A stretch of 64,000 nucleotides of DNA from Halorhabdus sp. BNX81 (GTDB lineage Archaea; Halobacteriota; Halobacteria; Halobacteriales; Haloarculaceae), in the NCBI RefSeq assembly GCF_029229925.1, contig NZ_CP107254.1, positions 1,550,001 to 1,614,000 of the forward strand, given 5' to 3'. The notes beneath the pieces are model-generated. The model was not told the origin of the DNA. It made no database searches and saw only the letters and a program-made list of their open reading frames with translations. Position 1 is the first letter of the stretch. Every line of letters starts with the position of its first letter. Positions 54,141 through 59,064 of the stretch are shown here, in pieces. The translations under genes were made by a program, and so were the position numbers.

Positions 54141-55685
54141 TCAAAACAGGACGTTCGAGACGGGAAACAGCAGGGGGACCACGTTCGACGAGAGGAGACT
54201 GGCCATCTTGTTCACGTCAAGCGGCCAGGTCGGGGCGTCCTGGAGGGCAGCCCACTCGGGCCCCTCCGAATCGTCGAAAGAGTGGATCCGGTCGCCCGCG
54301 GCCGGCGTCCGGGACGCGTCAGTCTCCCGATGGGTCCCCTGGTACTTTCGAGCGATCCGGTGTTTGTCCCGGACCATCTTGGCGTGCATCGACCAAAACG
54401 AGTAGTAGCCCCACGCGCCGGCACCGAGCGCGTACCCGACGACCGGGCCGACGAAGCTGATCAGCCAGACGGCGGTCGCCAGCGGATCGCCGATCGCCAT
54501 GACGCCCTCGGGCGGAACGGCCCGGCCGCCGACGACGTACAGCCGGTAGACCAGATAAAGCCCGGCCATCGAGAGGAGCAGGTTGATCCGGATCGCAAAG
54601 CGGCCGAGATCCCGGAAGCCGCCGTACCCGTCGACGTGGAACGGTTCGTAGGTTAGATCGACATCGCTGTACTCCCCGTTTGCGTTCAGGAGCCGGTTGA
54701 AATACCGGACGACGACCAGAAACTGGAACGCAACAGTGCCGAGGACGGCGTTGAGCGAGGCGTTGACGACCAATCCAAGCCCGTACTCCAGTTCCTGTGG
54801 GCCGTTCCCGATTAGCCAGATGATGGCAAACTGGGCAGCAACGAGCACACCGAACACCCGGGACGGGGAGAACCCGTAGGCGCTCAACCGGAGGTTATCA
54901 TGGAGGTCAGTCAGGAAGTGCCGGTAGGCCAGTTCGTCACCCACGATGTCGTTGGTCCGCGTGCCAAGCGTGACAAACAGATGCTCGATCCGAAGCGTCG
55001 CTTCGTAGAGAAACTGTCCGGCAACGAGCAACAACAGAAGATAGCCCGAGACGAAGACGACGTTCGGGGCAACGCTGCTGGGATGACCGGCAGAGACAGT
55101 CAGAAACACCGACGCCCCGACGCCGGCCAGCAGCCCCCCGACGAGTCCGTAGATGGCAAGTGCGGTCGGGAACTCCCGGTACTCGACGACGTCGACCATC
55201 GACAGCAGCCAGAGCAACACCGGCGTGATGGCGAGATAGAGTCCAAACAGTCCCGCATCCGGCCCCGCGATCGTCGGGACCAGGTCAGTAATGGGGGCCA
55301 CGGATGGGTCGATCCGCGCCCCACCGACGAGGAGGGCACTCGCCACCAGAATCACGAACGGTGTGTGCCGGAGGAGCTGTCGTGGAACCCCGTCGATAAA
55401 TGCGAACTGTGCCTCCTCACCGGTCTCGCGGTAGGTTCCGTCCGGCTCGCGCTCGACCCGCTCGAACGTCGGCCGCGCACCCGACTCGGGGCTGACCGCA
55501 AGAAACGGAAACGAGTCGCGGCGAGTGACCTGAGGGACGATCTCACAGATCCGGTGGAGGTGCAAGTCCGAGCCGCCGTCGGTCCACCGGATCCACAGCG
55601 ACCCGAGCAGTTCGTCGTCGTCCGGCCGATCGGCCCGCCAGTCCTCCCGCGCCGTCGACCTGTCGGTCGCGTCCGGCTCACCCAT
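54141..55685 (-). CDS. Large multi-pass membrane protein, unknown
   Basis: A 514-residue protein. The first ~110 residues are an acidic cytoplasmic domain (DLHLHRICEIVPQVTRRDS and an EEAQFAFIDG stretch); the remainder has about eight or nine helices, some paired by long loops near 220-260 and 330-360. There is no UbiA-type N-D-x-x-D motif, so it is not the missing DGGGP synthase of ether lipids. It sits between the GGGPS-like gene and the paired small membrane-protein genes, all on one strand. Function unknown. Start is the ATG at 55685. Confidence 0.65.
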   Translation of the reverse strand: MGEPDATDRSTAREDWRADRPDDDELLGSLWIRWTDGGSDLHLHRICEIVPQVTRRDSFPFLAVSPESGARPTFERVEREPDGTYRETGEEAQFAFIDGVPRQLLRHTPFVILVASALLVGGARIDPSVAPITDLVPTIAGPDAGLFGLYLAITPVLLWLLSMVDVVEYREFPTALAIYGLVGGLLAGVGASVFLTVSAGHPSSVAPNVVFVSGYLLLLLVAGQFLYEATLRIEHLFVTLGTRTNDIVGDELAYRHFLTDLHDNLRLSAYGFSPSRVFGVLVAAQFAIIWLIGNGPQELEYGLGLVVNASLNAVLGTVAFQFLVVVRYFNRLLNANGEYSDVDLTYEPFHVDGYGGFRDLGRFAIRINLLLSMAGLYLVYRLYVVGGRAVPPEGVMAIGDPLATAVWLISFVGPVVGYALGAGAWGYYSFWSMHAKMVRDKHRIARKYQGTHRETDASRTPAAGDRIHSFDDSEGPEWAALQDAPTWPLDVNKMASLLSSNVVPLLFPVSNVLF

Positions 55686-55768
55686 TCGTGGTGGGTTTTC
55701 CTGCGTAGGCGGTGAAAAAAGTTCCTGTGAACCAGCCGAATGGATACGATTCGTTCGTATAAATAAAT

Positions 55769-56257
55769 CTATAGGAACTTGCCGGAGTCGAAGTAGTGGG
55801 CGAGCACATAACCGCCGAGGAACATGCCGCTGCCGACGTTCCCCAGGAGGTGATTCTCCAGGCGGACGTACCACGCCAGAATCGCGATTCCGGCTACGAG
55901 AATCGCGATCCCGGCAAGAAAGCCAAAGACAGCGGGTCCATCCGGCAGGATCGCCCGGAGTTGCCAGAGGACGCCGCTATCCGCGTCGCCCGAATCGGCG
56001 GCCCCGTTCATCGTCGGGGCGTCGGCACTCCCCTCACTCATGTCGTCGACGAAGACGCCCTCCTCGGCGTAGTGAGCGATGAGATAGCCGGACCAGGAGG
56101 TGAACCCGGCGACGTAGACCAGCAGCACGTGGCCTTGGCTGGCCCAGATGAAACCCGAGGACATCGAGGCGGCGGTGACCGCTAGGCCGACGATCAGGCC
56201 CAAAGCACTCCCAACGCGAGCAAGCGACGAGTCACGTGGGCGTGTCCCGGCAGCCAT
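55769..56257 (-). CDS. Four-helix membrane protein, paralogue of next gene
   Basis: A 162-residue protein with four helices (two pairs divided by an acidic loop near 72-95, VDDMSEGSADAP). The last helix ends with GGYVLAHY, which repeats in the neighbouring gene as GGYIFGHIG. The two genes are one base apart on the same strand, so they likely form a heteromeric pair. Function unknown. Confidence 0.65.
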   Translation of the reverse strand: MAAGTRPRDSSLARVGSALGLIVGLAVTAASMSSGFIWASQGHVLLVYVAGFTSWSGYLIAHYAEEGVFVDDMSEGSADAPTMNGAADSGDADSGVLWQLRAILPDGPAVFGFLAGIAILVAGIAILAWYVRLENHLLGNVGSGMFLGGYVLAHYFDSGKFL

Positions 56258-57810: not shown

Positions 57811-59064
57811 TCACTCGCCGGCGGCGGCCCCGGGCAACACGGTCGGATCGCCGGAGCGATAGATATACTCGGTGGCGATGCCGGTCAGCGGCGAGTCCGT
57901 CTCGGTCGCGAACGTCTCGGCGAGATCGAAGTACCCCTCGCTGATCGAGACGATCCGGTCGTAGGCCGTCTCGGCGTCCTCGGCGAGGACGTATTCGGCG
58001 GTGACAGGCGTGAGTTGCCCATCGACACGGTCGTCGGCGTAGTCGTCGACATCGTCGAGCCAGATCTGGGCGCCGATGATCGCCAGCACGATCGAGCGCT
58101 TGAACGCCTCGTCGACGGGCAACCCGGCACGCCGATACATCTCGATCATGCCGTCGTAGATGACGCCGACCCGGGCGTACTGGGTTTTGAGATAGGGCAA
58201 CGCCTCGATGTCTTCAAAGAGCGTAACCTCCGCGTCGAATTCCGACAGGGACGCGTCGCGGTACTCCGTTCGGATGTCCTCACGAGCCGAGGAATCACCG
58301 TCACGGGCAGCCCGAAAGAGGTCCCGGAAGTGCGGATCGCGATCCTGGTGGCGCTCCGAGAGGTCGACGGCCCACTCGTAGATCTCCCGGACTTCCCCGG
58401 GGAGGCGGTCAAATGTCGCATCGAGCTCCGACGCGAGGGTCTCCTGGGCGATCTCGGCGACCCGGCGTCGCTCCGCCGGAGTGATGTCGAAGCCGACGGA
58501 GAAATCCTCGAACTCCGCGTCGTTGATCGCATCCCGCATGTCACCGTCGATCAACGCGGCGAGCACGAGCCGAGTGAGGTAGTCCCCACCATCGACAAGA
58601 TCCTGTGGGGAAGTCGGGCCGGTGGCCCACTGCTCTTCAGTGATCGACTGTCGAAAACTGACCGGTCCGGCCACGTCGTTCTCGGCGAGGTCCGTGGCTT
58701 CTGGAGTCTCGTCCTCCCACATACTCAACGCGACGGGATCGGCACCGTCGTCGGCGCGATTCCTCGCCGTCCGATAGATCTGACCGAGTGTCAACTCGGC
58801 CGGCATCGTCAACTTGGTATCGTAACTGAACGAGACGGCCCCAGGAGCCACGTCGAAGGCATCGGCGATCGCGTCTTCGACCGGCTTGAAGGCATCGTCG
58901 ATCATCGCTTCGGTCCGTCGATCGACGATGCGTTTGAGCTGAATACTTTCGCGATCGAAGACGCCGGAGCCGGCATAATACCCGAAGACGGCCTGGCCAG
59001 TTGTCGGTACTGTGTCACGCTCGGCCAGCCAGCCGGCGAATCGCCGGCGAAGTGTCGTCCTCAT
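57811..59064 (-). CDS. Uncharacterised protein with isoprenoid-synthase-like Asp-rich motif
   Basis: A 417-residue, mainly helical, acidic protein. The C-terminal third has FKRSIVLAIIGAQIWLDDVDD: helix then Asp337-Asp338-Val-Asp340-Asp341, like the first Asp-rich motif of class I isoprenoid synthases, followed by YADDRVDGQLTPVTAEYVL. A Tyr-rich helix (YARVGVIYDGMIEMYRRAG, 296-314) packs ahead. It could be an isoprenyl-diphosphate-using enzyme of a new family, but no second motif of the NSE/DTE type is clear. It is just upstream of the GGPP-synthase gene on the same strand and divergent from the geranylgeranyl reductase. Confidence 0.6.
   Translation of the reverse strand: MRTTLRRRFAGWLAERDTVPTTGQAVFGYYAGSGVFDRESIQLKRIVDRRTEAMIDDAFKPVEDAIADAFDVAPGAVSFSYDTKLTMPAELTLGQIYRTARNRADDGADPVALSMWEDETPEATDLAENDVAGPVSFRQSITEEQWATGPTSPQDLVDGGDYLTRLVLAALIDGDMRDAINDAEFEDFSVGFDITPAERRRVAEIAQETLASELDATFDRLPGEVREIYEWAVDLSERHQDRDPHFRDLFRAARDGDSSAREDIRTEYRDASLSEFDAEVTLFEDIEALPYLKTQYARVGVIYDGMIEMYRRAGLPVDEAFKRSIVLAIIGAQIWLDDVDDYADDRVDGQLTPVTAEYVLAEDAETAYDRIVSISEGYFDLAETFATETDSPLTGIATEYIYRSGDPTVLPGAAAGE

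Follow-up and report, generated by a model that had tools for sequence, protein, structure and literature searches.

The GGGP synthase (GGGPS) determines the stereochemistry of archaeal membranes and their first chain and, to our knowledge, is regarded as conserved and universal. Moenomycin synthesis pairs MoeO5, a TIM-barrel enzyme resembling GGGPS, with MoeN5, which has the prenyl-synthase fold and extends the lipid-bound chain by a prenyl unit (PMC9385802, PMC7839719, PMC13096315). In AfGGGPS, W99 is the chain-length limiter (PMC9385802). Some haloarchaea are already known to have two paralogues of GGGPS, IaH1 and IaH2 (Peterhoff et al., as relayed in PMC9385802), and IaH2 is said to have Leu at the limiter position.

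The window analyzed here, a stretch of 64,000 nucleotides from a genome of one contig (2.83 Mb), encodes P0001 (57811..59064, minus strand; 417 aa, ATG start), the founding protein of a new family that has a predicted class I prenyl-synthase-like fold and fails three features that define polyprenyl synthases. The original prediction could place the protein outside its Asp motif in no known family, and neither single-sequence nor alignment queries find a match in Pfam, NCBIfam or PDB sequences. Pfam and hhalign do not relate P0001 to PF00348, and comparison with haloarchaeal polyprenyl synthases reveals no significant homology (hhalign probability <1%, at looser settings as well). The tie to polyprenyl synthases rests on structure, since the sequence-profile comparison is negative. 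An anti-phage role was discarded, as a PADLOC search gave no match.

AlphaFold2 yields a P0001 model with a pLDDT of 91.5 (pTM 0.90) and a model of a 356-aa Halovenus orthologue (L084) with a pLDDT of 94.7 (pTM 0.92). When searched against the PDB with Foldseek, class I prenyl synthases or their relatives make up 49 of the 50 best matches to P0001 (best E 1.4e-2) and all 50 of the best matches to L084, the top one at E 5.5e-4 and probability 1.00 (TM up to 0.60 by target). The E-values are modest, with TM-scores of 0.4-0.6, and the two models are not fully independent because they have most of their alignments in common. Comparison with a viral structure library gave no meaningful match. As modeled, P0001 has the all-α class I isoprenoid synthase fold that had been anticipated.

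P0001 is more than a product of chance, as homologues are encoded in 83 of 146 genomes of the family (Haloarculaceae) and about 88 of 391 genomes of the class, two weak matches (G288 and G295) having been removed as spurious. When 187 genomes of the phylum were searched with a profile, the four matches all fell in genomes already known to be positive. A pattern scan of 84,980 genomes with a pair of conserved peptides from the region of the first Asp cluster, which remoter members could escape, identified 70 loci, every one haloarchaeal; the closest named relatives among them are Halorhabdus species at 72% identity, which points to Halorhabdus as the source. Judged from these searches, the family is confined to haloarchaea in the data searched.

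Residue conservation was evaluated in an alignment of 61 orthologues, with 18 more from a whole-protein search, free of motif seeding, as a control set. Thirteen of the 87 acidic residues of P0001 are at least 98% conserved (D173, D175, D178, D182, E184, D187, D243, D337, D338, D340, D341, D345 and E357), and 11 of these fall within residues 173-187 and 337-345. The first cluster, DGDMRDAIND (residues 173-182; 58519..58548, minus strand), sits where predicted helix 153-181 reaches its C terminus. Its conservation is partly ascertained through the pattern-scan peptides, a bias relieved by the 18 unseeded orthologues, which carry the same patterns wherever the regex captured the motif; in a few it caught another stretch for one motif. 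The second motif region, QIWLDDVDDYADDRVDGQLTPVTA (residues 333-356; 57997..58068, minus strand), contains invariant D337, D338, D341, D345, Q350 and T352. It includes a DDxxD second Asp-rich motif, with D337, D338 and D341 present in 61/61 orthologues (100%). The LDDVDD stretch that drew attention to this protein (residues 336-341) does close a helix, sitting at the C terminus of predicted helix 319-338, and its Asp motif proved conserved in the unseeded orthologues as well, wherever the regex captured it. In the L084 model, both clusters likewise close long helices. The FARM and SARM of prenyl synthases sit at such helix ends.

Other hallmarks are altered. Instead of a first Asp-rich motif of the form DDx(2-4)D, the family has a nearly invariant DGDMRD. 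YDTKLTMP (residues 81-88; 58801..58824, minus strand) presumably occupies the place of GGKxxRP in prenyl synthases; the family pattern is T[KR]LxLP, in which K/R84 and P88 are kept and the Arg of the IPP-binding motif is lost. Furthermore, SERHQDRD (residues 236-243; 58336..58359, minus strand) contributes invariant S236, H239, Q240 and D243, and KTQYARVGVIY (residues 293-303; 58156..58188, minus strand), which starts helix 292-312, contributes T294 (97%) and invariant Q295, Y296, R298 and Y303. The order K84...P88, first cluster, Q240, T294, Q333, DDxxD, D345...Q350-x-T352 presumably parallels that of FPPS, a correspondence drawn from knowledge of FPPS rather than from a computed alignment.

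These features bear on whether P0001 is simply a sequence-divergent member of the ordinary head-to-tail prenyl diphosphate synthases (GGPP or GFPP). Theirs is the closest fold, the SARM-like DDxxD is kept, and Halococcoides, which has both P0001 and the GGGPS homologue P0003 described below, makes C25 chains at sn-3 (PMC6423904). However, the IPP-binding Arg and the canonical FARM are missing, canonical synthases are kept in all 17 genomes examined, and Haloarcula argentinensis (L058), which has P0001, is not among the strains listed with >10% C25 chains (PMC10704169), so that we regard this reading as highly improbable. The same Haloarcula lipids leave P0001 unsupported as a general C25 synthase (PMC10704169). 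Alternatively, P0001 could be a non-catalytic or regulatory partner, comparable to the small subunit of heteromeric prenyl synthases, that would bind prenyl diphosphate or another synthase and steer chain use towards the P0003-type GGGPS. Such a partner would be in keeping with the altered FARM and GGKxxR, the constant presence of P0001 with P0003, and the 2-5 PF00348 enzymes already found in every one of the 17 genomes. Yet known non-catalytic small subunits are without DDxxD (PMC7839719), and P0001 keeps the Asp, Gln and Arg residues of its two clusters without exception, which argues against a non-catalytic regulator. The neighboring synthase is also not conserved beside P0001, and a regulatory role seems rather unlikely.

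That synthase, P0002 (56813..57739, minus strand), is a GGPP-type enzyme (PF00348, 3e-48) encoded 71 bases from P0001, as the original prediction had it, and is a real yet non-conserved extra copy. The GGGPS homologue and geranylgeranyl reductase expected nearby are also present: P0003 (52775..54049, minus strand; PF01884, 5e-29) and the divergent neighbor P0004 (59270..60643, plus strand; 457 aa; geranylgeranyl reductase subfamily, 4e-65). The link to ether-lipid genes therefore stands, but the adjacency of the synthase is limited to the host genome and one close relative (G073). P0002 was rejected as a functional partner, being absent beside P0001 in 70/70 pattern-scan loci, and an adjacency so confined tells little about the function of P0001. 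Among 17 genomes, P0002-type extra synthases occur only in the host, G073 and possibly G044.

The conserved partners are instead P0003 and a divergent reductase. Of the 92 P0001 loci examined, 54 have P0003 within 2.5 kb: it is divergent in 28, downstream and codirectional in 21, and convergent in 5. In three others it lies farther off, as it does in this window. Thirty-seven of the 92 loci have a reductase divergent to P0001, of the canonical lipid type in 21 and of the P0004 type in 16. Haloarcula relatives have a canonical lipid reductase in the P0004 slot, scoring 769 bits against the digeranylgeranylglycerophospholipid reductase equivalog NF041385 (cut-off 700). P0001 is genetically coupled to GGGP formation. 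One could still assign it, as a terpene cyclase or prenyltransferase, to another branch (carotenoid, quinone, polyprenol), with the proximity of lipid genes reflecting a common precursor and regulation; P0001 occurs without P0003 in Haloarcula and Halomicrobium, and divergent reductases can serve other terpenoids (PMC10821996). Against this stand the strict co-occurrence of P0001 with P0003, the repeatedly rearranged adjacency and the identity of the Haloarcula reductase, and we consider such a role distinctly unlikely.

Several further observations concern the neighborhood. The host genome and its relative G072 have no match to NF041385, which is found in five further genomes of that genus; the P0004-type reductase may substitute for the NF041385 enzyme in these two genomes. 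A long protein with no Pfam match is encoded at 54141-55874 (minus strand), and homologues with 32-33% identity occur near P0003 in L081, L089, L222 and L223. An apparent P0001-P0003 fusion in L118 is artefactual, caused by a stretch of N in the scaffold. Finally, replacement of DGGGP synthase by P0001 was discarded, as the 17 genomes examined contain UbiA homologues, a DGGGPS-like one among them.

P0003 is the only GGGPS-family gene found in the host genome. By sequence it belongs with the GGGPS/PcrB TIM barrels and has their G1P site (PF01884 match, fully conserved Y-x-E-Y-S-G, 2f6u alignment), sharing the G1P-binding motif YxEYSGT with archaeal GGGPS and bacterial PcrB, but it has 424 residues versus about 230, with N- and C-terminal additions. 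Against the canonical haloarchaeal model TIGR04147 (>300 bits) it reaches 61 bits (G000 match). The position of the AfGGGPS limiter W99 is Ala or Ser in 53 of 57 sequences of P0003 homologues, in an alignment that includes three remoter GGGPS-like proteins, whereas the canonical Haloarcula GGGPS retains Trp in this stretch. The small residue fits P0003 taking longer chains, as in PcrB, and P0003 has no Leu there, unlike IaH2 as reported. Two GGGPS-like proteins (L212:8503-9267 and L213:8587-9762) that are 38-39% identical to P0003 have His at the limiter, in genomes that also contain canonical GGGPS; they are a third type, perhaps the known IaH2 subgroup. Between the host and G073, P0003 is 99% identical and the flanking P0001 and P0002 are 85% and 91% identical, which suggests recombination or recent transfer of the P0003 gene.

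Across 391 haloarchaeal genomes, all 50 that are positive for P0003 also hold P0001 (Fisher 2e-39, before correction for relatedness). As this value takes no account of shared ancestry, the repeatedly rearranged adjacency is the stronger argument. Canonical GGGPS is missing from 20 of the 50, the host included, and P0003 has probably replaced it there. TIGR04147 is absent at E 1e-60 from 26 of the 391 genomes of the class, of which 20 have both P0003 and P0001 and six have neither; in the family, it is above cut-off in 102 of 142 genomes. The searched genomes of Halorhabdus (g1), Halapricum (g2), Halovenus (g13), g5, g20 and g22 have no TIGR04147 match and only the P0003 type, the three genus names being inferred from pattern-scan loci. 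Halococcoides (G046) also has the P0003 type and no canonical GGGPS. In its chromosome, the P0003-type gene (L211; 54662-55879) is far from P0001 (L042; 1959612-1960781), so co-occurrence needs no adjacency. Halococcoides cellulosivorans HArcel1 makes C20-C20 archaeol (81%) and an extended archaeol that has C25 at sn-3 (13%) (PMC6423904). Because Halococcoides makes archaeol with the P0003 type and without canonical GGGPS, its GGGPS activity in vivo very probably comes from a P0003-type enzyme.

The reverse dependence does not hold. P0001 is present without P0003 in Haloarcula, Halomicrobium and others, whose genomes keep canonical GGGPS; it is thus not simply a P0003 subunit, and its role cannot hang on P0003 alone. 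The computations show the fold, the motif conservation, the coupling to P0003 and a reductase, and the lack of canonical GGGPS where P0003 is the sole copy. The reading we favor, with slightly better than even confidence, is that P0001 is a metal-dependent prenyltransferase that works on a prenyl chain at the GGGP step of ether-lipid assembly or close to it. By analogy with the MoeO5/MoeN5 pair, this appears the most likely role. P0001 would bind Mg2+ and a prenyl diphosphate and act as a prenyltransferase in glycerol-ether lipid assembly, its target being either the prenyl donor or the chain that the P0003-type GGGPS attaches to sn-3 of glycerol-1-phosphate. A more specific version, which we hold to be speculative and quite improbable, has P0001 and P0003 forming an alternative first module, in which the chain at sn-3 is attached by a GGGPS of relaxed specificity and either made or lengthened by P0001 in the manner of MoeN5. 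If true, this would explain the C25 at sn-3 of Halococcoides, where canonical GGGPS is absent; most of the haloarchaea found to make C25 in that study have it at sn-2 instead (PMC6423904).

Several haloarchaeal genera seem to have lost canonical GGGPS and to depend on a long, divergent form, always together with the prenyl-synthase-like P0001. This makes an enzyme replacement in a core lipid step open to a sharp test, and P0001 adds a new enzyme family that is invisible to family databases. Compared with the PF00348 trans-isoprenyl diphosphate synthases, P0001 shares the predicted fold, Asp clusters that close two long helices, a DDxxD-type second motif preceded by Gln, and the Thr of the K-T motif. 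It differs in the lack of a detectable profile match, in DxDxxD for DDxxD in the first cluster, in the lost Arg of GGKxxR, in an invariant Gln for the Lys after the second motif, and in its occurrence only in haloarchaea in the data searched. MoeN5 is outside the 50 best structure matches and comes from a different domain of life. The likeness to MoeN5/MoeO5 is one of gene pairing alone: in both, a gene for a prenyl-synthase-like fold, here P0001, is coupled to one for a GGGPS/PcrB-type TIM barrel, here P0003.
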